From assembly GCA_017303395.1 (NCBI GenBank), contig JAFLBN010000007.1:1-64000 (forward strand): a DNA stretch of 64,000 nucleotides, read 5' to 3'. Under the pieces are notes generated by a model. The model saw only the letters and a list, made by a program, of their open reading frames with translations. It made no database searches and was not told the origin of the DNA. Shown in pieces: positions 35,924 to 56,702 of this stretch (position 1 is the first letter of the stretch; each line of letters opens with the position of its first letter). The translations under genes and the position numbers were made by a program. Origin of the DNA: Chitinophagales bacterium (GTDB taxonomy: Bacteria > Bacteroidota > Bacteroidia > Chitinophagales > Chitinophagaceae).

Positions 35924-36169
35924 ATGCAGTTTCCATCCCCCGGTAATCATGATTGGCCAATAAGTGAAGCTACGACTCTATGGACGGTAGCATTCGGCAC
36001 AATAGGCGGTGTTTATAAGGCACAAGCAATACCACATCTTTTATTGAACAGTTTAACGATGGACGGCAGCATTGCTGTTGTGTCTTACGCATTTATGAGT
36101 GCGGTGATTGGCTATTGCACGAAGAAGGGAATGGATTATCTGTTTGAAAAATTCAGGAAGAAAAACTAA
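35924..36169 (+). CDS. Small membrane protein (holin-like), first gene of the long rightward block
   Basis: 81 residues with two hydrophobic segments: ~15-33 (TLWTVAFGTIGGVYKAQA) and ~47-65 (GSIAVVSYAFMSAVIGYC), ending in a basic tail KFRKKN. Two TM helices with a charged C-terminus is the layout of small holins or virion membrane proteins. No family was recognised. It is followed after 2 bp by the LEA-like gene, so the two are co-translated. It is about 60 bp downstream of the repeat array that probably controls the operon. Confidence 0.65.
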   Translation: MQFPSPGNHDWPISEATTLWTVAFGTIGGVYKAQAIPHLLLNSLTMDGSIAVVSYAFMSAVIGYCTKKGMDYLFEKFRKKN

Positions 36170-36171
36170 GG

Positions 36172-36672
36172 ATGCACACAGCGGTAAAAATAGGATTGGG
36201 CGTAGGTGCTTTGGTAATAGCGGGTCGTTTGTTACAACTGAACAAACTGGCTGCCAATGTTTCCGTGTCGCTATCCAAAGTCCGCGTACATAAAGTCAAT
36301 CTATCCGGTGTTGAAATAGCTGCGACTGCAAAAGTGAATAATCCTTCTGACGTATCAGTAACGATTATTAATCCGGTGGTGCGTTTGTGGAATAACAAGG
36401 GCGGCATGATTGCAGAAAGCCCTTCTGTTAGCAGAAGTTTTCCCATTGCATCGAATCGTCAGAGCGAAGTAGGTGAGATTTTACTACCCCTTTCCTGGAC
36501 TACGATACTGCCACTGATGGGTATTAAAAACATCACGAGCATCATCAACCTGTTCAGTAAAGGCGGCACTAAGGGTGTATTAAAATCCTTTACACAGCCC
36601 ATTGCGATGTCAGTCATCATGCAGGTAGAAGGGATGACCATTGAGACACCTAAAACCATTATCAACAAATGA
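36172..36672 (+). CDS. Membrane-anchored LEA-type-2/WHy-like domain protein
   Basis: 166 residues. One N-terminal TM/signal-anchor, VKIGLGVGALVIAGRLL, is followed by a beta-sandwich region: VRVHKVNLSGVEIAATAKVNNPSDVSV is the LEA14/WHy pattern with N-P-S/T, and EGMTIETPKTI ends the domain. WHy domains occur in stress and phage-associated proteins and are thought to bind membranes or proteins. Its stop overlaps the start of the next gene (ATGA), so it is in the same operon as the transglutaminase-like gene. The function is inferred only from the fold. Confidence 0.7.
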   Translation: MHTAVKIGLGVGALVIAGRLLQLNKLAANVSVSLSKVRVHKVNLSGVEIAATAKVNNPSDVSVTIINPVVRLWNNKGGMIAESPSVSRSFPIASNRQSEVGEILLPLSWTTILPLMGIKNITSIINLFSKGGTKGVLKSFTQPIAMSVIMQVEGMTIETPKTIINK

Positions 36673-38564
36673 CGATGAAGATTTTTAACAGGGATTATCA
36701 TCCCGACCTGGAGATCAGCAGTGGTCAGCGCATACTGCGAACAGACGGAGCAAGGTATAACCACCTGTTCCCGAAAGCAGATGCAAAGGACACGGTCGTT
36801 ATGGATAATGGAGAGGTTGCAGACACCCTCAAAGTGATAGAAGAAGTGGTCTGGAAGTTTATTGGTGATACAAAGGAAATAGCGCAAAGTCTGAAAAGAG
36901 ACAGGCTGGAAGACACCCTGAAAAATATCTGGGAGTTTCTGTACCACAATATCCAATACAAATTGGACAAGCAAGGCATGGAGGAATTACGCAGGCCTGC
37001 GAGAGCATGGCACGACCGCATGTCAGGCATTGATTGTGATTGCTTTTCCATCTTCTGCTCTTCGATACTGTGCAATTTGGGAATCCCTCATCGCTTTCGC
37101 ATTACCAGGTATTCACAACCACACTGGCAGCATATCTATGTGATCGTACCTCTCAATAATGATGAAGGTTATTACACCATAGACGCTGTACTGGGGCAAT
37201 TCAATTACGAAAAGCCCTTTACGCAAAAAATGGATTATACCATGAGTTTAGATGGAATCAAGATCGCCGTATTAAGCGGCGTAGAACATAATTCGCCATC
37301 AGCGAACGATACCGGCAGAATAATAATGAACTCCATGCAGCTTGCTGCTGCTAACAATGTTGCATTACATGCAACGATATTCGGAGTAGACTTACAAGGG
37401 TTGGGTATCATGGATGGCGAAACCTATTTACAGGGCGTAGTCAAAGACTACGCACTGGAGCAAGGCTTGTATCGTTACCTGCTGGCAACCAGACAAGCCA
37501 TTGCAGAAAATCCTGTCACTTCTTTTGTGGCAGGTTATAACCACCAGGAGCTGTTAAAAATGCTGGATTATGCCATCCAGTATTGGTTCACTGACAAAAG
37601 AGATACTGCACTGGGGCAACTGATGGCAAATGAAACCTTGCTGGACAGGCTCAATGGTTTTGGTAACCTCGACGGTTTATTGGGTGATGATGCTTTGTAT
37701 GGTGATGATGATATTTTCTTCGGGGATGACGACTTACAATTAGGACGCACCAAGAAAAGCAAGGCAGCAGCCAAGCAACCCAAAGCAAAGAAGAAAGGAT
37801 TTTTTAAGAAAGTCGGACAAGGTCTGAAAAAGGTAGGTAAGGGATTGGTTCGTTTTAATCCTGCGACCATTGCATCCCGTAATGGTTTTCTGCTGGCGTT
37901 GAAACTCAATGTCGGTAAAATGTCCAGCCGCCTGAAATGGGCGTATGCGACACCGGAACAAGCAAGGGCGAAAGGCATCAGTCCTGCAACCGTTGCCAAT
38001 GCAAAACGTGCATTGGTAAAAGTCGAAAAACTGTTTGAAAAAGTAGGTGGTAAAAAAGACAACCTGCGTAAAGCGATTCTCAGTGGCAAGAAAGGAAGCC
38101 TGCATGGTTTAGGTGTTGTGCCTGTGGCTGCAGCCGTTGCTGCAGCAACACCACTCATCACGGCAGTGGTAAAAATCATGCGTGATACCGGGCTGGCGAA
38201 AAAAGATGAAGCCATTGATATTTCCGCTACAGAAGGTGCAGCCACGGAAGATGATGGTGTAAGTTTTGAAGATGGAAATAGTTCACCAACCGATGAGAAT
38301 AATGAGTTGCCAACCGATGAGGAGCCTAGCGGAGAAGATGGCATTAGTGGTTTAGGTAACATCGCAACAGGGGCTGTCAAATTCGCACAGAACAATCCTG
38401 TATTAGGTATTGCTATTGGAGGTGCGATCGCTTACGGTGTGTATAAAGTCTTAGACAGTGATAATACTGACAAAACATCAAAAGCCATTACCGCACCCGT
38501 ACTAACAGGACATAGTAGTAGTGGCAGGCATCCTCCGGAGTCAAGGATACATCTACTGGCTTAA
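36669..38564 (+). CDS. Transglutaminase-like cysteine hydrolase domain with long membrane-active C-terminus
   Basis: 631 residues. Residues ~75-210 resemble a papain-like transglutaminase core: GIDCDCFSIFCSSIL with Cys123 followed by D-C, HWQHIYVIV with a His, and YYTIDAVLGQF with an Asp, giving a plausible C-H-D triad. Residues ~350-375 are acidic (DDD runs). Residues ~360-400 are lysine-rich and amphipathic (KKGFFKKVGQGLKKVGKGL). Hydrophobic stretches follow at ~480-505 and ~590-608, flanking an acidic S/T/E/D/P stretch. An amphipathic/hydrophobic tail with a protease-like head could process virion proteins or attach to a membrane. The start overlaps the previous stop by 4 bp. Confidence 0.72.
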   Translation: MTMKIFNRDYHPDLEISSGQRILRTDGARYNHLFPKADAKDTVVMDNGEVADTLKVIEEVVWKFIGDTKEIAQSLKRDRLEDTLKNIWEFLYHNIQYKLDKQGMEELRRPARAWHDRMSGIDCDCFSIFCSSILCNLGIPHRFRITRYSQPHWQHIYVIVPLNNDEGYYTIDAVLGQFNYEKPFTQKMDYTMSLDGIKIAVLSGVEHNSPSANDTGRIIMNSMQLAAANNVALHATIFGVDLQGLGIMDGETYLQGVVKDYALEQGLYRYLLATRQAIAENPVTSFVAGYNHQELLKMLDYAIQYWFTDKRDTALGQLMANETLLDRLNGFGNLDGLLGDDALYGDDDIFFGDDDLQLGRTKKSKAAAKQPKAKKKGFFKKVGQGLKKVGKGLVRFNPATIASRNGFLLALKLNVGKMSSRLKWAYATPEQARAKGISPATVANAKRALVKVEKLFEKVGGKKDNLRKAILSGKKGSLHGLGVVPVAAAVAAATPLITAVVKIMRDTGLAKKDEAIDISATEGAATEDDGVSFEDGNSSPTDENNELPTDEEPSGEDGISGLGNIATGAVKFAQNNPVLGIAIGGAIAYGVYKVLDSDNTDKTSKAITAPVLTGHSSSGRHPPESRIHLLA

Positions 38565-38595
38565 ATGATTTTCTAACAATAAATACAATTCAACA

Positions 38596-39231
38596 ATGAC
38601 AAGTTCAGCAAATACAAACCCGGCACCCGGTATCAAAGAAGTGCTTAAACAAGTGCAGCCGATGATAGAGAATGTCGCGGGTTTTGTGATCGGCAACATC
38701 GCCGTGAATATGGCGAATAAAGTAATGAAAGTAGACCCTGCGGACGCGTCGCAGAAGGGCATCAAAAAAATGCTGCCACCACTGGTTGTATCGGCAGGTG
38801 CGATGTATGGTGCTACGAAAGTAGAACAACCGATGCTAAAGAATATCCTGCAAGGCGCAGCTATGGCAGGTGCATATAAAACCGTGAAAACGCTGATGCC
38901 TACTGCCACCTTCCTGGCAGGTGACGGCTTGGGCCTGACACCGGTAGCTGCGGTATCGAATGGAGACAGGTGGCTGTATCATGAGCGTACACCTATATCG
39001 GGCATGGGCTTTCCTGATTTAGGCAATGTACAGCCTCCGGCAGGCAGTTCCGGTTATTATATCGATGCACCCGCTTATATGGGAGAGCCTGAACCCATGT
39101 ATGCGCAACAGGTTGGTTACACGCGCAATATAGATGAACCGCTTTATGGCGGTGAAGAAGAGCAGATGCTGGGACAGAGTGAGGAATATATCGCGCAGAT
39201 GAGTGGTAATGATGACCTCCAGATATTATAG
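38596..39231 (+). CDS. Membrane-associated structural-type protein, unknown family
   Basis: 211 residues. The first ~110 are hydrophobic and helical with segments VAGFVIGNIAVNMANKVMK, PPLVVSAGAMYGATKV and ILQGAAMAGAYKTVKTL. The last ~100 are Gly/Pro/Tyr-rich (MGFPDLGNVQPPAGSSGYYI, MYAQQVGYTR) with an acidic E/Q-rich end, resembling surface-exposed or capsid-contact tails. No enzyme motif is present. It lies between the transglutaminase-like gene and the beta-rich capsid candidate, 31 bp after the former. It may be an internal membrane protein of a virion; this is inference. Confidence 0.6.
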   Translation: MTSSANTNPAPGIKEVLKQVQPMIENVAGFVIGNIAVNMANKVMKVDPADASQKGIKKMLPPLVVSAGAMYGATKVEQPMLKNILQGAAMAGAYKTVKTLMPTATFLAGDGLGLTPVAAVSNGDRWLYHERTPISGMGFPDLGNVQPPAGSSGYYIDAPAYMGEPEPMYAQQVGYTRNIDEPLYGGEEEQMLGQSEEYIAQMSGNDDLQIL

Positions 39232-39310
39232 CCTAAATCCGCTTTTAAAAGTCAATCAAATCACAATTAATCATTGCTGCTTATGAGATGAGCAGCGCAA
39301 ACAGAAGAAA

Positions 39311-40021
39311 ATGTTTACACTAGGACAGATCAACGAAAGTGAATACAATTTGCTCGGCGCTATGAGTGAAGCTGAGTTTCTCGGAGCAGTAGAGCAGGCA
39401 CAACCGGAAGAGAAAGCAAGGTTTTTCCGCAAGACCAAAGAGATAGCCCGCCAGGGTGCAGGCAAAAATGCACGTGGCAGCCGTGGTGATTTTGAAAGCC
39501 GTATCAATTTATTGCCGCGTGATATACAAAAAGGCTTGGCGAGTAAATCACTGCAGTCGGTTGACATCAGCTATTATGCGGTGAAAGATATTACCAACAG
39601 CAAGGTTGTAAAGATGCTGCGTGATGATGATAATAAAACCGTAGGCTATACCAATATCAGTTCCGCAAAACTGGAGAAAGGTGCTTTCTTCCTTTTACAT
39701 GCGATACGCCTGATGTATGGTGTAGCAGACCAGGGAACAAACAGCCCGCTGAATGTCAATTTCTCGATCACACCGGATTTTATCCGTAACGGTGAATTTG
39801 AGTTCAAAGCCAATGGTGCAGTGCTGGTGCCGAATACTTCACTGGAAGTATTCAATACCAAAGGCAATAACAAGCTGGTAGAAGGTACGTATGTGCTGGA
39901 TAATCCAAAACTGATACGTGACCAACAGACCATCGAATTCAACCTGGAATGGGGAACAAATGCGCCGCCAAACGCATTCCTGAAAGTGGTACTGATCGGT
40001 ACTACGGTTGTTAAAGCCTAA
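39311..40021 (+). CDS. Candidate major structural (capsid-like) protein
   Basis: 236 residues, soluble, no signal peptide. The N-terminal ~75 are charged helices (QPEEKARFFRKTKEIARQG). The rest is beta-rich: VDISYYAVKDITNSK, LNVNFSITPDFIRNGEFEFKA, GAVLVPNTSLEVF, TIEFNLEWGT and NAFLKVVLIGTTVV. An N-terminal helical arm plus a single beta-sandwich of this size fits a single-jelly-roll capsid protein, but I do not recognise a homologue. It lies directly before a set of shorter beta-rich paralogues, as major structural genes often do. The highest-copy status is inference. Confidence 0.55.
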   Translation: MFTLGQINESEYNLLGAMSEAEFLGAVEQAQPEEKARFFRKTKEIARQGAGKNARGSRGDFESRINLLPRDIQKGLASKSLQSVDISYYAVKDITNSKVVKMLRDDDNKTVGYTNISSAKLEKGAFFLLHAIRLMYGVADQGTNSPLNVNFSITPDFIRNGEFEFKANGAVLVPNTSLEVFNTKGNNKLVEGTYVLDNPKLIRDQQTIEFNLEWGTNAPPNAFLKVVLIGTTVVKA

Positions 40022-40039
40022 CAGGGTCAGGGGTTACAG

Positions 40040-40064
40040 ATAGGGTTTATAGGGTTTATAGGGG
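40040..40064 (-). repeat. CCCTATAAA tandem motif, copy 2
   Basis: On the minus strand CCCCTATAAA-CCCTATAAA-CCCTAT: the 9-bp unit CCCTATAAA occurs twice and is followed by CCCTAT. It contains an exact copy of the 16-mer at 35741-35756. It lies in the 67-bp gap after the capsid candidate. Confidence 0.75.
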
Positions 40065-40088
40065 TTCATCAGACTAAAAAATCTACCA

Positions 40089-40556
40089 GTGAAGAATAAC
40101 AAATTCCAACGTATACGGTTGCGGGTATCATCCGCAGGAGAGACACTACGCTTCAATGCTGTTTGCGACAAAGGCTTTCGTAACATCAAAGGCATTTTTG
40201 TTTCGCTGCCGCAGGATAAAGCCATACAGGGTTCGATGCTGGGCTTTCGACTCAATAACGTGGAAGTACTTGATGACGGACATGAGGTAAAGAACCTGAC
40301 TGCATCCAACGGTGTAGCTCCGAATAGTAAGTTTTTCCTGTTCCCGGAGAAAATAGAAGCATTGGGTGGCAGTATTGAGGGCAGGTATACGGATGGAAGT
40401 AAATATCCTTTACTGGTAGATAATGGAGAAGACAGTGGTGTATATGATCCCGGCAAGGTGGACTTTAAAACCCTTGCCGGGTACACCACCAACCCATATG
40501 GTGTGGTGTTCCCTTATGATGTGATTATCAATATCTGGTTAACCAACGAAGCCTAA
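40089..40556 (+). CDS. Beta-rich structural-type protein A
   Basis: 155 residues from a GTG at 40089, the only reasonable start before NNKFQRIRLRVSSAGETLRF. It is a paralogue of the next gene: both share F-Q-R/K-x-x-L-R-x-S-x-x-G near the N-terminus, a G-I-x-x-S-x/V strand, a G-F-R-x-x-x-x-x-V-L-D-x-x-H-E segment, and YPYDVxI near the C-terminus. No signal peptide or TM is present. Predicted all-beta. It could be a capsid, spike or vertex protein of a particle. There is 1 bp between the stop and the next start. Confidence 0.6.
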   Translation: MKNNKFQRIRLRVSSAGETLRFNAVCDKGFRNIKGIFVSLPQDKAIQGSMLGFRLNNVEVLDDGHEVKNLTASNGVAPNSKFFLFPEKIEALGGSIEGRYTDGSKYPLLVDNGEDSGVYDPGKVDFKTLAGYTTNPYGVVFPYDVIINIWLTNEA

Positions 40557-40557
40557 G

Positions 40558-41145
40558 ATGATACAGGGATATCGTTTTCAGAAAGTCAGTCTGCGCATCA
40601 GTAAAAGTGGGCAGCGTGTTTACTTCAATGCGGAAAGCCATAAAGATTTTTCGATGCTGAAGGGTATTGCTTTATCGGTGGGTTATGATGGTGCATTGTT
40701 TGGCAGCACATTCGGATTTCGGGTGGACGAGAAGAAAGTGTTGGATGAAAGCCATGAAGCACACCTGCTGGTATTTGGCAATGACGTATCTCCCAATGAC
40801 AGGATGCTGTTTTTTGAAACACCGATACCCATACACAGCGCTAAACTGGAAGGGATTTATACAGATAGTGCTTTACAGTCACTGCTGGGTAATATCAGTT
40901 ACAGCCCCGGTGGTGGTGTGATTGCTGCCACAGATGTGAATGTTAAGAAGACCTATGTATCAGGTAAGGATATTGTCTCTTACGGTAACGCGGTAGTAGA
41001 TAATGTACCTGTGTACAACGCACCAATTAATATAGGACTGGGTAACAGCAGCATGACGATGCCAAGTACAGGCGCATCGCCTTCCGCACCGGCACCGGTG
41101 TATTATCCCTATGATGTAAAGATTACAATGTTTTTATCCAGGTAG
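40558..41145 (+). CDS. Beta-rich structural-type protein B (paralogue of A)
   Basis: 195 residues. The N-terminal ~110 match protein A (FQKVSLRISKSGQRVYF, FGFRVDEKKVLDESHEAH). A Gly/Pro/Ser/Ala linker (~185-180 region, PSTGASPSAPAPVYYPYD) precedes the shared C-terminal strand VKITMFLSR. The extra ~40 residues relative to A form an insertion with repeated V-x-N/V-x-V motifs (TDVNVKKTYV, NAVVDNVPVYN). The paralogue pair suggests an oligomeric two-subunit shell, as in viruses with two single-jelly-roll capsid proteins. No homologue was recognised. Confidence 0.6.
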   Translation: MIQGYRFQKVSLRISKSGQRVYFNAESHKDFSMLKGIALSVGYDGALFGSTFGFRVDEKKVLDESHEAHLLVFGNDVSPNDRMLFFETPIPIHSAKLEGIYTDSALQSLLGNISYSPGGGVIAATDVNVKKTYVSGKDIVSYGNAVVDNVPVYNAPINIGLGNSSMTMPSTGASPSAPAPVYYPYDVKITMFLSR

Positions 41146-41147
41146 CG

Positions 41148-41576
41148 ATGACTAAGACGAGGATTATATACCACCCTGTTCCTTTTATCGTTAGACAACC
41201 CTTGACACCGGTGACGATCAATACGGTTTTACCGAGTCATATCCGTAAAGTGACAGGTATTAAAGTGGTGCATTCGGTAGGCGTGCAGTCGATGACGACA
41301 GCAGCGTATTTGCCTGTTATCGGTTATCTGTCGCTGGAGTTTAATAATAAGCAATATCACTTCGGGCATCTCGATGTTCCTTTTGATAACCGTGCGGAAG
41401 CCAGTGACGCATATCATGATGCTGCCATAGACATCATGGCAGGTAGCCTGCTGACAGGCAATTATGAAAATAAAGTGTTTACCGGCATCGAGTACCAGAA
41501 AGCGGATGGAACTATAACAGACAAGTGGAGCAATTATATCGTAACCATCTATCTCAAAGCACTATCGGATGATTAA
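41148..41576 (+). CDS. Beta-rich structural-type protein C
   Basis: 142 residues. TRIIYHPVPFIVRQPLTPVT is followed by IRKVTGIKVVHSVGVQ, which resembles the IKGI strand of proteins A and B, then YLSLEFNNKQYHFGHLDVPF and a final YIVTIYLKAL strand matching their C-terminal strand. It is therefore probably a third, more distant paralogue. It has no signal peptide and overlaps the next gene by 8 bp. Confidence 0.55.
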   Translation: MTKTRIIYHPVPFIVRQPLTPVTINTVLPSHIRKVTGIKVVHSVGVQSMTTAAYLPVIGYLSLEFNNKQYHFGHLDVPFDNRAEASDAYHDAAIDIMAGSLLTGNYENKVFTGIEYQKADGTITDKWSNYIVTIYLKALSDD

Positions 41577-41913
41577 TGTAGAGGATTATGTAGAGCGGCA
41601 GATGCGCAGACGAGGAATGGAGATTGCCTATGCGCGGATGCTACCGGTGGTTGTAAGAAGGATTACGGATAGTACCGGCAAAGTACTGAACAACAGTATG
41701 GACTTCGATGCCTATAACCAGTATTGGTTTCTGGTCAATGCTTACGAACTGCCTGTCGGCACGCGCATTACCAGTGATACCAATGTACTGTTGCTGGAAG
41801 CGCATACCAACGATACGATGGAAGAGTTCTGGGGTAAGATCAAAATACAGTTACCTGATTCCTTTACCGGCAGTTTATGCCAGGCATTGTTTTACCAGGT
41901 GATACCTAAATAA
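41569..41913 (+). CDS. Short hypothetical protein in the structural cluster
   Basis: 114 residues with an N-terminal helix, MINVEDYVERQMRRRGMEIAYARM, then strands (YWFLVNAYELPVGTRI, NVLLLEAHTN, IKIQLPDSFTG) and a final CQALFYQVIPK. Not recognised. Its 8-bp overlap with protein C and the shared strand places it in the same transcript, probably with a coupled role. Confidence 0.5.
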   Translation: MINVEDYVERQMRRRGMEIAYARMLPVVVRRITDSTGKVLNNSMDFDAYNQYWFLVNAYELPVGTRITSDTNVLLLEAHTNDTMEEFWGKIKIQLPDSFTGSLCQALFYQVIPK

Positions 41914-41932
41914 ATGACGATTAGCACAACCT

Positions 41933-42781
41933 ATGGCACAAAGTGATTTTCCGGAACTGCGTTCCCTTTTTGATAAAAACAGAGAAGTAGTCAAGATGCT
42001 TAAGGGAGAGAAACAACTCTCTGAAAAGCAAATAGCATTTACAGCAGTATACAGTAAGCTGGGTAAAAAGATAGCAGAGAGTAAAGACAAAACATCGCTG
42101 ACTGCATTTACGACCGTTATCTGCGGACGTTTTCAGGTATGCCAGCCGGATAGCATTACCATTACCTGGCATAACGCGGATACCAGCGAAAAACTATTCG
42201 AACATACTTTTTCTGTTGGCAGGCTGCAGCGCGAAGAAGAGCTGGTGCAACCACGTATGATACAGGCCGCACCTGTGACTTTTCAAGGCTTAGGAGAAGC
42301 GGATGTCAATAACCTTGTCGAAAAACGGTTGACCGAAATGCGCCGTACGGAGGATTATGAACGGATGCGGGATGAGAACCAGAAGATGCAATCACAGATT
42401 GCGGAACTGGAAGCGCGTAATGCAGACCTCCGCCATGACATTGCAGCCAAAGAGACAACAGAGAGCTATATGCGGATCCTCGGAATGGCATTACCGGGCT
42501 TATCTAAATTCTTTGGTGGTGCAAGTATACTGAGTATGCTGGCCGGAACGGAAGAAAAAGCAGAACAAGTACAACCTGCTATCGGAGCTGCTGCAACAGA
42601 GACGCCTGTCAAGGTAGAGCCAAAAGATGAAAGAGAGCAGATGGTATTGATGCTGAGAGATTATATGCTGGAGGAATTGAGCCAGCAGGAAGTCGCTACC
42701 ATCTATCTGATGTTCGTAGAAATACAAAAAGACAAAACAGTTATTCAAAAACTACTTAATCAACTCACGCAACAATCATGA
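41933..42781 (+). CDS. Coiled-coil protein with hydrophobic C-terminal segment
   Basis: 282 residues. The N-terminal half is mixed (ELRSLFDKNREVVKMLKGEKQ; later GEADVNNLVEKRLTEMRR). A coiled coil runs over ~140-185 (MRDENQKMQSQIAELEARNADLR). A hydrophobic GMALPGLSKFFGGASILSMLAG (~195-215) precedes a helical end EELSQQEVATIYLMFVEIQ. It may be a scaffold or membrane-associated assembly protein. No homologue was recognised. It overlaps the next gene by 4 bp (ATGA). Confidence 0.55.
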   Translation: MAQSDFPELRSLFDKNREVVKMLKGEKQLSEKQIAFTAVYSKLGKKIAESKDKTSLTAFTTVICGRFQVCQPDSITITWHNADTSEKLFEHTFSVGRLQREEELVQPRMIQAAPVTFQGLGEADVNNLVEKRLTEMRRTEDYERMRDENQKMQSQIAELEARNADLRHDIAAKETTESYMRILGMALPGLSKFFGGASILSMLAGTEEKAEQVQPAIGAAATETPVKVEPKDEREQMVLMLRDYMLEELSQQEVATIYLMFVEIQKDKTVIQKLLNQLTQQS

Positions 42782-42993
42782 AATTACCAATACTCCATAG
42801 CAAGCCTTCAAACGGACAAGCAAAGCAATTTGATGTGACCATTCAGGTAGCGGCTCAAAATGAACAGGAAGCAGCTGAGATGCAACAAGCCATTCAGAGT
42901 TTTGTACAGCATTTTTCGCTGAAGGAAATGAAAAGTGCTGCACACAAGTTAAAGACACCGACCAACCGCAGTATGATCAAAACTTTTCTGTAG
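42778..42993 (+). CDS. Small hypothetical protein
   Basis: 71 residues. KLPILHSKPSNGQAKQFDVTIQVAAQNEQEAAEMQQAIQS shows one beta strand and an amphipathic helix, then FVQHFSLKEMKSAAHK. The TAG at 42991 is immediately followed in frame by the ATG of the next gene. Not recognised. Confidence 0.45.
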   Translation: MKLPILHSKPSNGQAKQFDVTIQVAAQNEQEAAEMQQAIQSFVQHFSLKEMKSAAHKLKTPTNRSMIKTFL

Positions 42994-43530
42994 ATGTCTG
43001 ATAAGCGTTCCGAGATACAAGGGCAGCTTATCAGCAACCTGCCGATGATCATACTCGCAGGCGGTACCCTCTACCTCGCGTCTAAAATATTGAAAGGCGC
43101 AGGACAGACTGCTGATGAGATTGCGCAGGCATTGCAACTGAAGAAATCAGATGAGCAGGTCAAAAGTGAAAAGCAATCACAGGAAGCGATAGAACGATAC
43201 GTGAATGAAATGCCCAAGAAGCAAAAGCCGACGCGCCCTGATGGCTTCTGGGCGCAACTGGCAGAACGTATTTATCGCGACACCCAATTCAGTGCAGTAG
43301 GTGACGCCCATGATGACGCCAGGTATTGCATGACCTATGTGGGTAATGACGCAGACTTTGCACTGCTCTATAAATACTATGGCAGAAGACAAGAAACTTG
43401 GCTCGGTATTTTTCCTGACGGAGGACTAAAGGATTTGACACAGGCGATTTCCTCTAACCTCAATAAGGCGCAGAAGCAATCTATCAATAAGAATTATGCC
43501 CGTAAGGGTATTGCGATCAGGTTTGTTTAA
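42994..43530 (+). CDS. Membrane-anchored hypothetical protein
   Basis: 178 residues with an N-terminal TM helix, NLPMIILAGGTLYLASKILKG, then a charged linker and a compact C-terminal domain (~85-178: PDGFWAQLAERIYRDTQFS, DADFALLYKYYGRRQETWLG, and SSNLNKAQKQSINKNYARKGI). Topology suggests one membrane anchor with the domain outside or inside the particle. No family was recognised. It follows the previous stop with no gap. Confidence 0.55.
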   Translation: MSDKRSEIQGQLISNLPMIILAGGTLYLASKILKGAGQTADEIAQALQLKKSDEQVKSEKQSQEAIERYVNEMPKKQKPTRPDGFWAQLAERIYRDTQFSAVGDAHDDARYCMTYVGNDADFALLYKYYGRRQETWLGIFPDGGLKDLTQAISSNLNKAQKQSINKNYARKGIAIRFV

Positions 43531-43540
43531 AACAAAGGAA

Positions 43541-44164
43541 GTGGACACATTAGAAGAACAAAAGCAGACAGGTAAGGGTGAACATACGGTGCGTTATATT
43601 ATCTATGCCGCCGCCGCTTATTTTGGTTTACAGTATTTACTGAAGCCAAAACGTGCTACGGCAGCTATTGTAACACTGCAACCGGCTACGGAAATAGTCG
43701 TTGATAATGACAGTGCCGTTGTAATGCCCAAACAACCTGTAGCCATTTCAAACAATACCGAGTCTTTCCCGCTTCGTAAAGGTATGAGAGGAGAACGCAT
43801 ACTGGCATTGCAGCAGAAATTAGGCGTTACGGCAGATGGGGTATTTGGTGGTGAAACACAGTCAGCGCTTTTTAGGCAGTTTGGTATTACAAGCGTCACC
43901 GCTTCACAATACCCATCTATTATGCTCTCTAAGCTGAAGACGCTACAACCCACTAATGCATCGCCGGTACTGAAGAGAGGGAGTCGAGGTGCAGATGTAT
44001 ACCGATTACAAAAATGGCTGGGCTTTAAAGATAAAGCATCAGCGAAGCAAGGGGAGCGGATAGCAGACAGTGATTTCGGGCAACAAACAGAAAACGCGCT
44101 CTACAGTAAAACAGGACAACGAAGTATCAGCATTGCGATGCTGCATCAATACACCAAAAAATGA
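43541..44164 (+). CDS. TM-anchored protein with two peptidoglycan-binding (PG_binding_1-like) repeats
   Basis: 207 residues from the GTG at 43541. An in-frame ATG at 43496 would overlap the previous gene by 35 bp. A TM helix, VRYIIYAAAAYFGLQYLL, is followed by a linker and two PG_binding_1-like helical repeats: RKGMRGERILALQQKLGVTADGVFG and RGSRGADVYRLQKWLGF ... FGQQTENALYSKTG. Such repeats anchor cell-wall hydrolases to peptidoglycan. With no catalytic domain here, it probably docks the lytic enzymes or the particle to the wall. The related TM/PG-binding protein lies at 46459-47442. Confidence 0.72.
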   Translation: MDTLEEQKQTGKGEHTVRYIIYAAAAYFGLQYLLKPKRATAAIVTLQPATEIVVDNDSAVVMPKQPVAISNNTESFPLRKGMRGERILALQQKLGVTADGVFGGETQSALFRQFGITSVTASQYPSIMLSKLKTLQPTNASPVLKRGSRGADVYRLQKWLGFKDKASAKQGERIADSDFGQQTENALYSKTGQRSISIAMLHQYTKK

Positions 44165-44234
44165 CAAGAGTTGTCAAGTATACAGATACGAACCTATAGC
44201 AGACAATAGAAAACGCACCCGCAGCATTCAGATA

Positions 44235-48901: not shown

Positions 48902-51900
48902 ATGATGAAGATGACTACTAAGCAAAAAGTCTATGTCCAGTCAGTAGAAAACGATTTGCGAACCCATACGAAGCAAACAAAGCGCAGCCTTGAGTCACGA
49001 GCTGCAGCCATGGGTATTGCAGATCAAAACGAAGTAAAGGAATTAACGGAACTGGCGATTGTAAACACTGCACGAAACATTGCGCTGCAAAATGATAGTA
49101 CTACGGAGGAAAAATTCCGACAAATGGTGCGACTCTACCAAGCGCAAGTGAACTTGTCCCATCGCACCTCACAAAGCATATTACTACAACAATACAGTAC
49201 CCCCGCACCCATTGGTTATCTGATGGGTGTTTTCTGTGGTATAGATAAACTGCAGTTGAAAGGTGGATATGCGTTTGAACCTTCGGCAGGGAATGGCTTG
49301 TTAACAGTCGCTGCAATGGCTGAACGAGTGTATGTCAATGAAGTAGATGAACAACGTCGCATGAACCTCCGGCAGCAAGGTTTTGCCAATGTCTGGAGCC
49401 GTGATGGCGGCCAGCCTTTCTTTGATGTGCAACAAAGATTTATGGCAGTGCTCACCAATCCGCCTTTTGGCAAGCTGGATAAAGCAGTAGTCATCAATGG
49501 TTATCCTATTGCGATACTAGAACACCTGATGGCTATCTATGCGCTGGATACGATGGCAATGGACGGTAAGGCAGCTATCATTATCGGCGGGCATACGGCA
49601 TGGGATAGTAAAGGACGTATACAGGCAGGCAAGAACCGCATCTTCTTTAACTATCTCTACCACCACTACCATGTAGCAGATGTAATCCTGCTAGCTGGGA
49701 AAGAATTGTATGCACGTCAGGGAACAGCATTTAATACCAGGCTGATACTAATCGGAGGCAGAAAACGCGACCCTGCCGGTGCCGCACCTGTTTACAATCC
49801 TGCCATCGACAAGGTCGTACACAGTTTTGAAGAACTTTTTGAGCGTGTCAAAACAGCTATGCGAACAGCGTTTCCGGGAAAAGCACCATCACAAACCACA
49901 ATACATACAAATACAAAATCAAATCAAGATATGAGTACGGAAGCGAAACGATTATTACAAGCCTTGCGAGGCAAATCGCTGGATGGCATGGAGGAAGCGG
50001 ATAGCGGGTACGCCATGACATACACCGAACAATACCTGCCATTGCAGGAATTATATAATGACGCATTGATATTACTACGAACTGAAAACTATTATGAGGT
50101 CTACGGAAAAGATGCAGGTTTTTTGAAGCATTTGTTGCCTGGTATTCGTACAACTACATTCCTGTGTGATGGTGTGTATATTGAATATACCGCATTGGAC
50201 GAGGCAGCAATGACAAGACTTATCCAAATGCTACAAAAAATGGGTATTCGTTTCATCCTTACAGATGATGCCGCCAATTCAAATCCAGTTACACGCGCAA
50301 ATAAAGATATGCCTGATAAGCAGCTTTGGGAAATCCCACTGGCTGATTTTTTAGCATCAGAAGAACAGGTTTACAAAATGCAATTGGCAAAAGGTATTGC
50401 CTATGAGCTGCCCTATAAGACAGAATATGTTATGCTGTTCAACACTTTTTTAGGTGCGAACGTGTACGATGCCTACCCGGATAATCCATATACCGATACC
50501 GGAAGAAAGGAATTGTCAAGGCGTGCATTCAGGCAGCAATGCCTGAAAATCATGCACAACTATAATGTCAGGCTGGCGATGACGATGGATATTATCGTAA
50601 GCGATGAAGTACTGGTGGATTATCCCCGTATGAAACTAAGTCAGGATGCAAGACTTACCTACCTGAAAACGATTGTTCATGCGGGCAATCAGTTGAATGG
50701 TATCAGGCGAAAACTACAGTCTTTACAAAAAGATACCCTGCTGCAATTATCAAAAGAACTAAAGCCTTTGTTTCAAATAAAGCATAAGGACATGTTGCAA
50801 GGCAATGAAGATGATGACGTGGTGGATCATGATGCTTTGTATGAACAATACAAGCAGTACAAACAAAATAAAGCAGATGCGCTCTACCTGCTTGAAACCC
50901 CTGAAACCTTTGTCGCTTTTAATGAAGATGCGGAGGCATTAGCCAAGACCTGTAATATCGGCATCATTAAAATGTCTGAAGGCGGTGTGTTCAAGTATTT
51001 CATCACAGGTTCATCCAAATCATTACTATTCCTGCGCATACAGCAATTACAGGATGCTGGCTATAAGCCTGTGCTGATAGAAGATACCCGCTATCATGCC
51101 CATGATTTACAGGAGCGTGTCGATCAGGAATTGAATAAAATACTGCGCCTGATAGATCAGCAAATGCCAAAGCATGAGGGCGACTTAGGAGCCCCCTATC
51201 AGCCCTCATCGAATGCCTGTATCGTACTGGACACACAAGTGCCTGACAGCATGGCTTTTGAAACACAAGAAGCACTGGCAGCGATCAAGGAAGCTGTGGG
51301 TGGTGATGCGGATAATTTTGTACGCGACCGCTTAGGTTATCCAACCAAGACGGCACTATGTAAAGCCCTGTCAGCAGAGCAGACAGATGCGGTGATGATG
51401 GGGATATACAATATCGAGGCAAGGGGACAAGGGATGATTATCGGCGACCAGACAGGTATCGGTAAGGGACGTGTGGCTGCAGCCATGTTGCGCTATGCAC
51501 ACCACCAGGGACTAAAGCCCGTATTCTTAACGGAGAAAGCGAACCTGTTCTCGGATTTATACCGTGACCTCTATGCAATCGGCTCCGGCCATCTGCGTCC
51601 CTTTATTGTCAATGGCAGGGAAAGTAAGACAGATATCAAAGACGAAGATGGTAATATCATCTACCAGGCATTACCCTATGCAGAGCAAACGGCTGCATTC
51701 AAATCGGAAAAGCTACCCGCAGGATTTGATTTTGCGATAGGTACCTATAGCCAGTTTAACAGCCCGGAAAAGAAACCTGAAAAACCTGCTTTTCTAAGTG
51801 CGATCGCCAGAGATACCATCTTCATCATGGACGAGTCCCATAATAGTAGTGGTTCATCCAATACGGGTAATTTCCTGCAAGGTGTTATCGCGCAGGCCAG

Positions 51901-54880
51901 CGGCGTAGTTTACCTCTCCGCCACTTTTGCTAAACGCCCGGATAATATGCCGATCTATGCGGTAAAGACCGCTATCTCGGATTGTAATATGAGCCGTGAC
52001 CAATTAGTTGAAGCGATACAGCGAGGAGGTGTGGCATTACAGGAAGTATTGTCTTCGCAACTCGTAGCTGAAGGACAGATGATACGCAGGGAAAGAAGTT
52101 TTGAGGGGGTAGAAGTGAACTATATCACTTTACAGGACAAGGCACAGGAACACGCTGCGATTGCTGATAATATAACAGGTATCATCCGCGACATCATCAG
52201 TTTTCAGAGAGATTATGTCGATTCAGTTGTTGAAGAATTAGACACCATAGCCGTTGCCGATGGCAAAGCGGTGGGTATGCGTGATGGCACAAATAAAGCA
52301 GGCGTAGACAATACTCCCTATTTCAGTAAGGTCTTTAATATCATTAACCAGATGCTCTTTTCCATCAAAGCAGCATCAGTGGCAGAGCGTGCCATCGAAA
52401 GGCTAAAAGAAGGCAAAAAGCCTGTAATTGCTTTCTCTTCCACAATGGGTAGTTTTTTGGAAGACATGACGGACGAAAAAGGATTGCCAGTAAGTGATGG
52501 TTCTGTTATCATGCCTGATTTTTCTGAAGTATTGCGCAGAGGTTTAGATGGGGTCATGCGCTATACTGAAAAAAGCCCGAATGGAGAACCTGTTTACAAA
52601 GCTTTTGAGATTACAGAACTATCGCCAGAAGCACAGGCGGTATACTTCGGTATCCGTAAACGTATTGATGAGATAGCAACCGGGATTTCAATCTCGCCGA
52701 TTGATGTGGTGGTACAAAACATAAAAGCGGCAGGATATACGGTTGCAGAAGTGACCGGGCGTAAATATGAATTACAGTGGCTGGAGGCGAATGACCCGAT
52801 GAACGAGTTTTTATCTGAAGGCAATAAAGAAAATTCAGTACGCAAAGCGATTGTGGCATTGCGTAAGAAGATAAACACCAACGATACTTTTCGGGAGTTT
52901 AACAATAATGAAGTAGACGTACTGCTTATCAACCAGAGTGGTAGTACGGGTGCATCGGCACATGCGATTCCTACTTCCAAAGTGCCCAAAGACAAAGTGA
53001 GGCAAAGGGTTATGATTGTGCTGCAGGCGGAACTGGATATTAATACCGAGGTGCAGAAACGTGGCCGTATCAATCGAACGGGGCAATTATTGAAGCCTAT
53101 TTATGATTATATGACTTCAGCCATTCCGGCAGAGCTCCGATTGATGATGATGCTGCAAAAAAAGCTGAAATCACTGGATGCCAACACAGCCTCTAATCAA
53201 AAGCAATCCAGCAAGATTTTAGATGTGCCAGATTTCCTGAATAAATACGGAGACAGGGTTGTTAAAGAATACTTATTAGAAAACCCTGCTGTGAACAGGA
53301 TGCTGGATGATCCATTGAAGTTAAAGAACACGACGGATAGCGAACAAGGGGATGCACAGGCCATGGAGAATGCAGCACATAAAGTAAGTGGGCGTGTAGC
53401 AGTACTGTCTGTAAAAATGCAGCAGGAGTTTTATGCGGAGATAACCGAGCGTTATAATGATTATGTGTCCTACCTGCAACAGATCGGGGATTATGATCTG
53501 GAGATGGAAGCAATGAACCTGGAAGCGGAAACAGTGAATAGCAAAGTCGTGAAAGTAGGCGGTGGTTCAGGTAGTGTATTCAGCGAGGATAGTGTTTTAG
53601 AAACAGTACATGCCAATGTGTTGCGCAAACCATTTACGGCAACAGAATTGGATAACCTCCTCAAAGAATCGTTACAGGGAGAAGATGCACTGAAAATACA
53701 GCAGGATATTATCCGTGACTATAACGAAGAGACGGCAATGGCAGCGGATATTGAAGCGAAGGAACTGGGTGAACGCTACCATGAGTTAGCTAAGCGTATT
53801 AACCTGGAGAAGAAATTTCTGCGGCTAAAGAACGACAGTGAAAGAGAAGCCTACTATCACCAACGCGAAAAAGAGATAGAAGAGGCGCATGGGAAAGCGC
53901 TGAAGCAATTGTTGGACAAAGCCGCGGCAAGGAAATTTTATCTCGAAAAGCTGTTTAAGTTTTTCTATATCGGGCGTAACCTGAGTTTTCCGATAAGTAC
54001 GGGTAGTGGTTATATGGAATATGTACCAACTGTATTCCTCGGCTTTGTGATAGACTGGAAACGTAAGAATCCTTTTTTGCCTTCTAAGATCAAGCTGCGT
54101 TTCGCGCTGGCAAACAGTAATAAATATTTTGCCATGCCTGCATCTTTTGAAGACATTGATAAGATCATAGGTGCAAGCGCGGAACTGCCAAGAATCGGAC
54201 TGGAGCAGATACTGCAAAATTGGGGCGTATACATCCAGCAGAATAATGCGGACAGAAAGACCCGACATATCGTAACGGGCAACCTCTTGCAGGCATTCAG
54301 TGATTTCCGAGGTAAACTGGTAAACTATACCACACTGGACGGAAAAATTGAAAAAGGCATCCTGTTGCCAGAGAATTGGGTGATGGATGAGCAGGTGCAG
54401 GATAAAGTGAGTATACCTGTCATCAAATCGCTTCCGCTTATTAAATCGCTTACGGTAGGACATTCGATTGTGACCAGCACCGGCATTGGTTTTATCAGGC
54501 AGCCAACCGGTTATAAAGTCATTGTTCCGATGGCGCGCAAAGTAGCGGGTGATATTTACCTCGATAAGGATTTACTGGCGCTGGTGGATGGTAATAATTT
54601 CAATCGTGTATCAGATAGGATGGTAGCGCAACTGAATATTGCTGCCATAGAAAACTTTGTAGGCATTATACAGGACAAGCATACCTGTTCTGTGATGATA
54701 AGCCGCCACCAGTTCAGCCAAATGGAAAAACAAGTTACGGTACACCACAAACGCAGGCCAATACGAATGCCTGAACCAGAGGGAGCATACCAAGCGAGTG
54801 ACCAGGAATTAGAATTACTCCAGCTCGAAGCAGAAGCACTCCAACTTAAACTAAGACTCAAACTAAGATTAGCAGCATAA
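48902..54880 (+). CDS. DarB/strawberry-notch-like giant protein: DNA methyltransferase + MutS-I-like domains + SF2 helicase
   Basis: 1992 residues. An N6-adenine methyltransferase at ~100-310 has motif I FEPSAGNGLL (~125) and motif IV NPPFGK (~186). Two domains resemble the MutS mismatch-recognition domain I: ~392-455 (NYYEVYGKDA ... LPGI) and ~660-735 (ETFVAFNEDAEALAKTCNIGI ... GYKPVLIED). The strawberry-notch-type helicase at ~830-1400 has Walker A GDQTGIGKGR (~846), DESH (~976), SAT and RGRINRTGQ (~1388). The C-terminal ~500 residues are helical then beta-rich. P1 DarB has the same methyltransferase-helicase order, travels in the virion and protects injected DNA from restriction. The role here is inferred from that. 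Confidence 0.82.
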   Translation: MMKMTTKQKVYVQSVENDLRTHTKQTKRSLESRAAAMGIADQNEVKELTELAIVNTARNIALQNDSTTEEKFRQMVRLYQAQVNLSHRTSQSILLQQYSTPAPIGYLMGVFCGIDKLQLKGGYAFEPSAGNGLLTVAAMAERVYVNEVDEQRRMNLRQQGFANVWSRDGGQPFFDVQQRFMAVLTNPPFGKLDKAVVINGYPIAILEHLMAIYALDTMAMDGKAAIIIGGHTAWDSKGRIQAGKNRIFFNYLYHHYHVADVILLAGKELYARQGTAFNTRLILIGGRKRDPAGAAPVYNPAIDKVVHSFEELFERVKTAMRTAFPGKAPSQTTIHTNTKSNQDMSTEAKRLLQALRGKSLDGMEEADSGYAMTYTEQYLPLQELYNDALILLRTENYYEVYGKDAGFLKHLLPGIRTTTFLCDGVYIEYTALDEAAMTRLIQMLQKMGIRFILTDDAANSNPVTRANKDMPDKQLWEIPLADFLASEEQVYKMQLAKGIAYELPYKTEYVMLFNTFLGANVYDAYPDNPYTDTGRKELSRRAFRQQCLKIMHNYNVRLAMTMDIIVSDEVLVDYPRMKLSQDARLTYLKTIVHAGNQLNGIRRKLQSLQKDTLLQLSKELKPLFQIKHKDMLQGNEDDDVVDHDALYEQYKQYKQNKADALYLLETPETFVAFNEDAEALAKTCNIGIIKMSEGGVFKYFITGSSKSLLFLRIQQLQDAGYKPVLIEDTRYHAHDLQERVDQELNKILRLIDQQMPKHEGDLGAPYQPSSNACIVLDTQVPDSMAFETQEALAAIKEAVGGDADNFVRDRLGYPTKTALCKALSAEQTDAVMMGIYNIEARGQGMIIGDQTGIGKGRVAAAMLRYAHHQGLKPVFLTEKANLFSDLYRDLYAIGSGHLRPFIVNGRESKTDIKDEDGNIIYQALPYAEQTAAFKSEKLPAGFDFAIGTYSQFNSPEKKPEKPAFLSAIARDTIFIMDESHNSSGSSNTGNFLQGVIAQASGVVYLSATFAKRPDNMPIYAVKTAISDCNMSRDQLVEAIQRGGVALQEVLSSQLVAEGQMIRRERSFEGVEVNYITLQDKAQEHAAIADNITGIIRDIISFQRDYVDSVVEELDTIAVADGKAVGMRDGTNKAGVDNTPYFSKVFNIINQMLFSIKAASVAERAIERLKEGKKPVIAFSSTMGSFLEDMTDEKGLPVSDGSVIMPDFSEVLRRGLDGVMRYTEKSPNGEPVYKAFEITELSPEAQAVYFGIRKRIDEIATGISISPIDVVVQNIKAAGYTVAEVTGRKYELQWLEANDPMNEFLSEGNKENSVRKAIVALRKKINTNDTFREFNNNEVDVLLINQSGSTGASAHAIPTSKVPKDKVRQRVMIVLQAELDINTEVQKRGRINRTGQLLKPIYDYMTSAIPAELRLMMMLQKKLKSLDANTASNQKQSSKILDVPDFLNKYGDRVVKEYLLENPAVNRMLDDPLKLKNTTDSEQGDAQAMENAAHKVSGRVAVLSVKMQQEFYAEITERYNDYVSYLQQIGDYDLEMEAMNLEAETVNSKVVKVGGGSGSVFSEDSVLETVHANVLRKPFTATELDNLLKESLQGEDALKIQQDIIRDYNEETAMAADIEAKELGERYHELAKRINLEKKFLRLKNDSEREAYYHQREKEIEEAHGKALKQLLDKAAARKFYLEKLFKFFYIGRNLSFPISTGSGYMEYVPTVFLGFVIDWKRKNPFLPSKIKLRFALANSNKYFAMPASFEDIDKIIGASAELPRIGLEQILQNWGVYIQQNNADRKTRHIVTGNLLQAFSDFRGKLVNYTTLDGKIEKGILLPENWVMDEQVQDKVSIPVIKSLPLIKSLTVGHSIVTSTGIGFIRQPTGYKVIVPMARKVAGDIYLDKDLLALVDGNNFNRVSDRMVAQLNIAAIENFVGIIQDKHTCSVMISRHQFSQMEKQVTVHHKRRPIRMPEPEGAYQASDQELELLQLEAEALQLKLRLKLRLAA

Positions 54881-54890
54881 CACAAACAGT

Positions 54891-56702
54891 ATGAAGATGA
54901 AACTAAACAGAACAAATTATTTTCAGCAGATAGGTAATTACATACACATCATTCAACAGGACGAGGATTTTGAAGCCACTTACCAGTTTATTAATAAAGT
55001 AACCAAGCAGGGGAAAGAGCCCAACAATATCGATAAGTCCCCTGAAATCAGGGAGACATTTGATCTGTTCCTGAAGAACCTGAATAGCCAGGAAGAAAAG
55101 CTTTCTAAAGCCAAGACAAAAAAAGCAGCACCAACAAAGCAACCGAAGCCGGTTAAAAAGCCCAAAACGGAAGCGCCTAAGAAAGCAGCAAAGCCCAAAC
55201 CAAAGAGAAAGGAAAAAATCAAGTATCAATCGGAGCAGGTGTCGCATATACCGTCTGATATAGCGCTTGTCAAAAAATACCTTTCACTGCATGACAAAGA
55301 CAAGAGCTATGTTCAGCTACTAGCTATATGGCGGGCATTTAATAAAGCCATTATAGAGCGGAAAGTTATCAGGGATTCCCCTTATCATGCAGAAATAGCA
55401 GCTATGAATGCAAGCCTGCGTGTTGCGGTGCATGAGGCAAGAGAAGCCGGCAGCCTGCACCTGGTTATTCCGGATGCCCGCCTAAAAGTCTATGATGAGA
55501 TAGCACATAGTGTTGAAAAGTCCGTGGGCGTAGGTATCCTGATGGAGTACATCAATATATCCGGTATGAAAGGATGGCAGGAGCGAGCAGAAAAACTGCT
55601 GCGACGAATTGAAAAAGCGGAAGCAGATGGACGATTGAAAGGCGATAGGTATATCCGGGAGGTACGTAAAGCATATACCGCTATCAAAGCTTATATAGAC
55701 AGAGAAACAGAAGTAGTAGATGTCAGTACCTATAGCCTGAATGGTATCGGTGAAATCGCAGTCATGGGTTGTGCATGTGAAGAAGGGCTAGACGGATTTA
55801 CCAGGGCACAAAATGCAGTTGTATATAAGCTCATGGAAGAGAATGTAAAGAATCTTTCAGATGAAGAATTGGAAAGGGCATTTGAAGATACAGTTGCGCC
55901 ATCGCTTTGTAAGGCGATTGCACATAAGTTGATGGAAAGAAAGCAACTTACTATGAGTATGATCCGTAATCCTGCAAAGCTGGCAAAGCGGGCTGCGTTA
56001 GCAGGGGCGGAACAGTATGATATAGAAACAGAGTTGATGGATATGCGACTGAAGAAAGCAGGTAGAAATCAGCATAAGCATACAGCAGGTGGTTTAAATG
56101 GGTTTGAAGAAACACCGTCAACTATTGCATCACAAGATGTGCAGATCATATCTGCAAAGGAACTGGTCAACAAGAAATTTAAAACAATGGGACTGGCGGG
56201 TAAGTACCGAAAGCTTTTGGGTGACCCTGAACCAGGGTTTTCAGCCATGATATATGGCAAGCCTAAACAAGGTAAGTCAACGGTAGCGATAGATTTTGCC
56301 AAGGAATTAACGAAGCATGGTAGGGTGCTGTATTGCGCATTTGAGGAAGGGCATGGTTATACCTTACAAGATAAAGTAAAACGCAATCATGCGGATGTGC
56401 CGGGGTTGGATTTTGCGAATAAACTACCTGCTCATCTGAGTTCGTATCAATATGTGTTTATTGATAGTGTAAGTGATGCGGGACTGGATGAACAGGCATT
56501 TAAGCAACTCATTAAATCCAATAAACCTACTTCTATCATAGGTATATTCCATGCCACCAAAGATGGAAAGTTCAGGGGAGGACAAACCTACGCACATGAT
56601 GTAGATATCTTGGTACGTGTGGAGGATGGCGTGGCACATGCACAGGGTAGATTTGCACCACCCAGTGATCTGAGTATAGCTGCCTTGCAAACTAGTATAT
56701 AG
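54891..56702 (+). CDS. RecA-fold ATPase with lysine/proline-rich linker
   Basis: 603 residues. The N-terminal ~65 residues are helical (FQQIGNYIHIIQQDEDFEATY). A K/P/A-rich linker (~70-112) precedes a long helical middle (~120-430). The C-terminal ~160 residues form a RecA/RadA-like ATPase: FSAMIYGKPKQGKSTVAIDF with Walker A near 454, VLYCAFEEGH (the catalytic Glu region), YVFIDSVSDAG (Walker B), and IGIFHATKDGKFRGG. It resembles phage Sak4/RecA-like ATPases. It could be a DNA recombinase, a helicase loader or a packaging ATPase. It is the last gene of the block, 10 bp after the DarB-like gene and before a strong terminator. Confidence 0.68.
   Translation: MKMKLNRTNYFQQIGNYIHIIQQDEDFEATYQFINKVTKQGKEPNNIDKSPEIRETFDLFLKNLNSQEEKLSKAKTKKAAPTKQPKPVKKPKTEAPKKAAKPKPKRKEKIKYQSEQVSHIPSDIALVKKYLSLHDKDKSYVQLLAIWRAFNKAIIERKVIRDSPYHAEIAAMNASLRVAVHEAREAGSLHLVIPDARLKVYDEIAHSVEKSVGVGILMEYINISGMKGWQERAEKLLRRIEKAEADGRLKGDRYIREVRKAYTAIKAYIDRETEVVDVSTYSLNGIGEIAVMGCACEEGLDGFTRAQNAVVYKLMEENVKNLSDEELERAFEDTVAPSLCKAIAHKLMERKQLTMSMIRNPAKLAKRAALAGAEQYDIETELMDMRLKKAGRNQHKHTAGGLNGFEETPSTIASQDVQIISAKELVNKKFKTMGLAGKYRKLLGDPEPGFSAMIYGKPKQGKSTVAIDFAKELTKHGRVLYCAFEEGHGYTLQDKVKRNHADVPGLDFANKLPAHLSSYQYVFIDSVSDAGLDEQAFKQLIKSNKPTSIIGIFHATKDGKFRGGQTYAHDVDILVRVEDGVAHAQGRFAPPSDLSIAALQTSI

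Follow-up and report, generated by a model that had tools for sequence, protein, structure and literature searches.

Salisaeta icosahedral phage 1 (SSIP-1) is described in four reviews as a phage with T=49 architecture and a circular genome of 44 kbp (PMC6260650, PMC6356626, PMC4958249, PMC5332951). These reviews place it among the viruses with two capsid proteins and vertical single beta-barrels (PMC4958249, PMC6356626, PMC5332951, PMC6260650) and call it unclassified, with a genome hardly like anything in GenBank (PMC5332951, PMC6356626). The window analyzed here comprises bases 1-64,000 of contig C42 (202,642 bases) in a 3.76 Mb genome of a Chitinophagales bacterium (G000), and contains a block of 23 plus-strand open reading frames (ORFs), chosen from a mechanical list, that fills the interval 35,924-56,702. 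This block probably encodes the virion, lysis and DNA-protection functions of an element that is integrated at the 3' end of the transfer-messenger RNA (tmRNA) gene and is either a temperate tailless virus or built on one. The locus is best read as a member of a broad lineage of SSIP-1-like viruses, either a provirus or a derivative of one, with defence and RHS-type genes in addition. As judged by sequence comparison, SSIP-1, a membrane-containing tailless phage of a salt-loving bacterium, looks like its nearest cultured relative. Genes are denoted by their first nucleotide; those compared with SSIP-1 or considered as capsid genes are the following.

36669..38564, + strand: transglutaminase-like protein, counterpart of SSIP-1 gp34 (DUF553, 2.8e-5)
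39311..40021, + strand: putative major capsid protein with one jelly roll (predicted structure)
40089..40556, + strand: candidate capsid or vertex protein, the second with a jelly roll (predicted structure)
40558..41145, + strand: paralogue of 40089 (the profiles of the two find identical genes)
47457..48176, + strand: lytic transglycosylase that may correspond to SSIP-1 gp54
48902..54880, + strand: 1992-aa strawberry-notch helicase with a MutS_I domain, DarB-like, which may correspond to the SSIP-1 structural methyltransferase gp43 (Helicase_C_4, 2e-20; AAA_34, 9.6e-20; MutS_I, 1e-11)
54891..56702, + strand: RecA-like ATPase, counterpart of the SSIP-1 virion ATPase gp40 (AAA_24, 1.8e-7)

A search of the 57 SSIP-1 proteins with 22 hidden Markov models (HMMs) of block proteins matches 54891 to gp40 (E=3.8e-24) and 36669 to gp34 (E=2.1e-13), with weak matches of 48902 to gp43 (2.4e-4) and of 47457 to gp54 (5e-4). 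The Pfam families DUF553 and Transglut_core match both 36669 and gp34. The SSIP-1 annotation classes gp34, gp40 and gp43 as structural, and gp43 is a methyltransferase. A six-frame run with 15 of the HMMs identifies gp40, gp34 and gp43 (the last at 0.0044) in SSIP-1, but gp54 is missing at the threshold of E<=0.01; in the tailed control, Bacteroides phage BS-TP4 (first 50 of 64 kb), the helicase HMM alone matched. The ATPase gene by itself is not specific for SSIP-1 because, in a search with 54891 that returned 36 phage records, SSIP-1 (1e-12) ranked below an uncultured phage of 636 kb (3e-18), and many Bacteroides phages came close behind. Beyond the gp34 and gp40 counterparts, the two genomes share the arrangement of many small structural genes in one single-strand cluster, with the integrase encoded elsewhere in the genome, and an endolysin of GH108 and PG_binding_3 domains (gp31 in SSIP-1) is common to SSIP-1 and a Cyclobacteriaceae relative of the element. 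However, the gene order is not the same, SSIP-1 encodes a tyrosine recombinase where the window has a serine recombinase, the window helicase is of the strawberry-notch type, which Pfam does not find in gp43, the element in the window is larger and carries cargo, and the capsid proteins are not alignable by sequence.

The predicted structure of 39311 (236 aa) is one barrel of eight strands, that is, a single jelly roll, and its best matches among solved structures, obtained with VIA-align, are viral capsid proteins, the top 12 rows all being viral capsid or scaffold jelly rolls. The model of 40089 is likewise an 8-strand jelly roll, with a mixture of capsid and other proteins among its matches, and chains of HHIV-2, HCIV-1 and SH1 are present among the matches of these models. 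By sequence, 39311 has no match in Pfam or PHROGs, and the matches of 40089 and 40558 there are at chance level. The 39311 profile finds no match among PDB sequences, and tblastn searches at E<=1 produce no match for 39311 in 50,697 phage records or for 36669 in phages. The 39311 and 40089 HMMs find nothing among the 57 SSIP-1 proteins, and hhalign comparison of 39311, 38596, 40089 and 43496 with ten SSIP-1 targets (including gp45/46, gp47 and gp48) gives nothing credible.

The jelly-roll folds also bear on the choice of virus lineage. The first-pass annotation of this DNA proposed that the element is a member or a derivative of a PRD1-, PM2- or P23-77-like lineage that has been little described in Bacteroidota. 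The assignment to tailless membrane viruses stands, but PRD1 and PM2 do not fit, given that their capsid proteins are double jelly rolls whereas the 39311 model has a single barrel, and the closest fit is the single-jelly-roll SSIP-1 type. The two small predicted single jelly rolls may correspond to those of SH1, HHIV-2, HCIV-1 and P23-77, and viruses of the P23-77 and SH1 type carry an FtsK/HerA packaging ATPase in the structural block. The block is not filed in those families because the 20 ORFs taken in by the Pfam and PHROGs scans (all 23 but 42778, 44070 and 46238) include no Pfam match to FtsK/HerA. The 39311 profile has no sequence match to the solved chains. The capsid protein of Sulfolobus polyhedral virus 1 (Portogloboviridae), an archaeal virus, shows 10% identity. 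Salisaeta is absent from the accessible part of PMC5894146, which surveys viruses with double jelly rolls. Literature listings contain papers on SSIP-1 but none recognizable as dealing with such proviruses.

Comparison with 11 relatives, namely two copies each in genomes G002, G006 and G007, single copies in G004, G009, G018 and G040, and the Persicobacter psychrovividus plasmid pPP10, reveals that almost the entire block is kept in the same order in seven of them and partially in the other four: eight core families remain in three of these (G018 has nine) and five in the plasmid. Scanning 84,980 species genomes by alignment reveals 147 loci; among the best 80 of these 147, 78 are labelled Bacteroidota, one is a Saccharospirillaceae metagenome-assembled genome and one is an unlabelled bin. 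The closest relatives of the capsid protein come from Chitinophagaceae and Bacteroidetes genomes, Taibaiella soli among them. In a survey of 82 loci, consisting of these best 80 and two from IMG/VR, the families of 40089, 36669, 36172, 43496, 41933, 48902 and 54891 are found in 82, 81, 74, 66, 57, 45 and 11 loci, respectively, the counts for the later genes being lower bounds because many loci stop short of the last genes. The element is found in 10 of 99 relatives searched and in 3 of 395 genomes drawn across the phylum, the genome itself being included in both samples. Only three IMG/VR records carry relatives, found by alignment (two, then three), although 39311 alone as a query found nothing there. 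In one of them, G099, which encodes a tyrosine integrase, 15.7 kb align with a chromosomal copy at 98.8% identity; another, G119, lacks a terminal repeat and so may not represent a circular genome in full. The ratio of nonsynonymous to synonymous substitution rates (dN/dS), where computable for 17 block genes against four relatives, ranges from 0.018 to 0.196, these values being rough because many synonymous distances exceed 1 or are saturated; 39311 has the lowest ratio in two comparisons and is among the lowest in a third. Thus, the block is real, conserved and under purifying selection.

The remaining genes of the block and the small gene preceding it are listed below (fractions refer to the 11 relatives or the 82 loci; transmembrane and other hydrophobic segments were judged by eye).

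34987..35193, + strand: DUF4248 small protein (Pfam, 2.8e-9; 7/11 relatives)
35924..36169, + strand: small, apparently membrane protein, first of the block (7/11 relatives)
36172..36672, + strand: presumably LEA2-like protein with an N-terminal hydrophobic segment (no Pfam match)
38596..39231, + strand: small hydrophobic protein preceding the capsid gene (7/11 relatives)
41148..41576, + strand: small block protein (7/11 relatives)
41569..41913, + strand: small block protein (24/82 loci)
41933..42781, + strand: coiled-coil-like block protein (by eye)
42778..42993, + strand: small block protein (7/11 relatives)
42994..43530, + strand: protein with an N-terminal hydrophobic segment (7/11 relatives)
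43496..44164, + strand: protein with a hydrophobic segment and a peptidoglycan-binding domain (PG_binding_1, 9.1e-4, below cut-off)
44070..44627, + strand: block gene, real start probably further 3' (homologues of 128-148 aa in 6/7 relatives)
44672..45526, + strand: possible fibre or receptor protein, putative (7/11 relatives)
45586..45933, + strand: possible holin (by eye; 7/11 relatives)
45812..46462, + strand: DUF6549 gene, frameshifted here into 45812-46126 and 46238-46462 (DUF6549, 6.3e-8, first piece)
46459..47442, + strand: second peptidoglycan-binding protein (PG_binding_1, 0.019, weak; same family as 43496 by HMM)
48210..48872, + strand: second lytic enzyme, C-terminal hydrophobic segment

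The gene content given in the first-pass annotation is borne out in part. Its single-strand block is there as delimited, its two lytic transglycosylases correspond to SLT domains in 47457 (4.7e-8) and 48210 (8.7e-4, just short of the Pfam cut-off), its peptidoglycan-binding domains to the PG_binding_1 matches in 43496 and 46459, both weak, its DarB-like protein (after DarB of P1) to 48902, and its RecA-fold ATPase to the AAA_24 domain of 54891. None of 10 block proteins tried against NCBIfam is named above cut-off. The reported overlaps between genes do exist, but to speak of many was an overstatement: they occur at 5 of 20 junctions (-4, -8, -4, -35 and -122) when the doubtful ORFs 44070 and 46238 are excluded and at 7 of 22 when they are included. 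The pieces at 45812 and 46238, which had been taken for separate small genes, are a single frameshifted gene that is one ORF of 210-216 aa in all seven relatives having it; the frameshift in the window may be genuine or may have arisen in assembly.

The location of the element is defined by two features to the left of the block.

32327..32694, + strand: host tmRNA (ssrA) gene, integration site (Rfam RF00023, 140.9 bits)
32564..34216, - strand: large serine recombinase, the integrase (Pfam Resolvase, 2.9e-25; Recombinase, 1.1e-8; Zn_ribbon_recom, 1.3e-6)

The 3' end of the recombinase gene runs into the tmRNA gene, which ARAGORN missed here but finds at the corresponding place in G006. The serine recombinase adjoins the block in five related copies, and contig C42 encodes no tyrosine integrase (PF00589). 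To the left, host DNA is unbroken up to positions 32,692-32,697 in alignments with G002 (contig C5), G008, G006 and G012, after which other DNA follows in those genomes. In related genomes, the element sits after tRNA-Val(tac) (contig C13 of G002 and C1 of G006), after tRNA-Arg(cct) (C9 of G007) or, by alignment, after the tmRNA (G004), and the copies start with the same or almost the same sequence. Because it follows tRNA-Val, tRNA-Arg or tmRNA genes in related species, the element moves. At the right end, five of six copies examined share a 28-base motif that resembles the 3' end of a tRNA. In G000 this motif lies past the window, at 102,264-102,291, so that the element would measure 69.6 kb from the tmRNA 3' end (32,694); the boundary at ~102,291 is deduced from the recurrence of the motif rather than from a precisely matching unoccupied site in this strain. 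Other copies measure 60.3 kb (G004), 63.7 and 79.3 kb (the two in G002) and 64.5 kb (one in G006), and in one G007 copy no such motif occurs within the 100 kb assembled. The motif recurs in G000 at 119,147, 125,700 and 133,578, and the host flank returns only at 155,244; the site is therefore an array, of whose first unit the window covers the leftmost 31 kb. Taken together, the recombinase, the defined ends, the tRNA or tmRNA target and the differing sites among genomes identify an integrated mobile element. Thus, the earlier delimitation is valid for the block itself but missed the recombinase and the real ends: the element is not a 21-kb cluster but a recombinase-bearing mobile island of ~69.6 kb with cargo. 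Its closest relative, ends and mobility are additions to what that annotation offered.

These features are compatible with the following life cycle. The serine recombinase would insert a circular genome at the 3' ends of tRNA or tmRNA genes, as the observed sites and ends indicate, and, with a partner, might excise it again. On induction, 39311 together with 40089 and 40558, as predicted single jelly rolls, would build an icosahedral shell around an internal membrane that presumably bears the small hydrophobic proteins. By analogy with SSIP-1, whose gp43 is a virion protein, the strawberry-notch giant might ride in the particle and shield incoming DNA, and the gp40-like ATPase may serve to package or deliver the genome. 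The transglutaminase-like and peptidoglycan-binding proteins and the transglycosylases could aid in crossing the cell wall, and the lysis genes would release the particles. The remainder of the ~69.6 kb would consist of RHS-type and defence genes. Particle production, the internal membrane and packaging are all proposed here by analogy.

Several observations weigh on whether the element still makes virions. The structure-library matches include PHM and other non-capsid jelly rolls, which counts against a capsid function. The locus could also be a virus-derived element that is still mobile but makes no virions of its own genome, producing instead gene-transfer or killing particles or depending on a helper, and that persists for its defence and RHS-type cargo. 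The frameshift in the DUF6549 gene, the sizes of 60-79 kb, which exceed the SSIP-1 genome as given in PMC6260650, a GTA_holin_3TM-family holin in one relative, and the tandem arrays and cargo all agree with such an origin. However, the DUF6549 gene is unbroken in all the relatives that have it, the 17 block genes tested are under purifying selection where this is computable, and insertion occurs at different tRNA genes, so that this explanation appears unlikely, though it deserves more weight than the two considered next. An integrative and conjugative element (ICE) or integrated plasmid, in which the block would be a cell-surface or DNA-uptake apparatus and no virion exists, draws on the frequency of strawberry-notch/methylase proteins on plasmids (526 records) and on the presence of part of the block, five families on one strand, on pPP10, which carries rep and par genes and has the giant gene in two pieces; pPP10 is possibly a plasmid-like prophage. 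Against it stand the capsid-like folds, the lysis genes, the matches to virion proteins and the lack of any relaxase or type IV secretion family in the 20 scanned ORFs (the rest of the element was partly scanned), which render it very improbable.

The giant helicase, which the block has in common with plasmid DarB-like/strawberry-notch proteins, is also shared with BS-TP4, a phage with an annotated portal and tail spike, and 48210 matches PHROG 4928 (6e-19) and a baseplate-hub family (PHROG 196, 1.4e-18), as might be expected of a decayed tailed prophage. In BS-TP4, a 16-kb ORF (1,511-17,686) holds the relative of the helicase (35% identity). The tail-labelled PHROG matches are, however, limited to the lysozyme domains of 48210 and 47457 (the latter to PHROG 2013, 'lytic tail protein', 0.0017), and no portal, large terminase, tail tube, tape measure or other tail-structure family is detected in the scanned ORFs, in agreement with the absences noted in the first-pass annotation, which extended to relaxase and type IV secretion. 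Furthermore, the other 14 HMMs had no match in the first 50 kb of BS-TP4, 39311 is without a match in the phage records, and the genes are under purifying selection; decay of a tailed prophage is thus the least credible of these explanations. In the searches made, this gene order was not matched by any tailed phage, ICE or secretion system, and the tailed-prophage, ICE and secretion-system readings are disfavoured by the family scans, the capsid-like folds and the virion-protein matches. The original assignment to a tailless virus lineage holds because the predicted folds of 39311 and 40089 are jelly rolls, no rival gene order was matched and two SSIP-1 virion proteins have counterparts in the block.

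If the provirus reading is correct, SSIP-1 becomes the cultured representative of a widespread group of Bacteroidota proviruses rather than an isolated case, a group that has escaped virus catalogues since none of the family models searched matches its capsid proteins. Among the carriers are named strains in culture, such as Taibaiella soli, with a copy that includes every block family, and Ohtaekwangia koreensis, Puia dinghuensis and Chitinophaga eiseniae, with copies examined in part, so that particles, capsid structure and transfer of defence cargo are directly testable. A more far-reaching proposal, which we offer tentatively and would not put quite at even chances, is that these elements form a new high-rank lineage of Bacteroidota viruses of the single-jelly-roll, membrane type, existing mainly as integrated 50-80 kb islands in tandem arrays at tRNA-type sites, with a tailless capsid, larger than is usual in such phages, that moves defence and RHS-type cargo between bacteria.

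Tandem arrangement is observed in two genomes. In the Cyclobacteriaceae genome G102 (contig C1, 1,519,754-1,669,959) four capsid genes lie on one strand, spaced 48.5, 51.0 and 50.0 kb apart, and in G101 (C1, 2,967,239-3,069,749) three, one of them broken, are 50-51 kb apart, with one further gene elsewhere; the ~50-kb units are 62-83% alike within their shared parts. One G102 unit encodes a tyrosine integrase, the GH108 and PG_binding_3 endolysin, a GTA_holin_3TM protein and restriction-modification-like cargo, and its giant helicase gene is inverted relative to the capsid genes. The type of integrase thus differs between families of the element.

The cargo of the element in the window begins to the right of the block.

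58467..64000, + strand: start of the RHS-type cargo region, which continues past the window (homology patches to ~79 kb; RHS label by eye)

In five other copies (two in G002 and one each in G004, G006 and G007) the 58467 gene flanks the block on the corresponding side, and very large RHS-type genes, so labelled by eye, occupy 63,566-80,085. The region 58,467-80,085 beside the block encodes giant RHS-like proteins of 2066 and 3199 aa. The 942-aa protein encoded by 58467 diverges far faster than 36669, with 43-47% identity compared with 79-85% in the same three copies. A defence library identifies, beyond the block, a TIR protein (ThsB, 1e-114), a CapP-like protein (1.7e-37) and a UvrD-like helicase. 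Next in C42 is a 17-kb unit (102,292-119,147) with genes labelled by eye as RND-type efflux genes, which is 98-99% identical to a unit on contig C15 of G002, whereas the adjoining virus-like elements are only ~80% alike, indicating recent transfer between species. It is followed, at 119,147-155,244, by more units that close with the same tRNA-like 28-base motif. Outside the element, on the minus strand at 18,258-22,853, the window encodes a protein of 1531 aa that contains PKD repeats and carries a type IX secretion signal.

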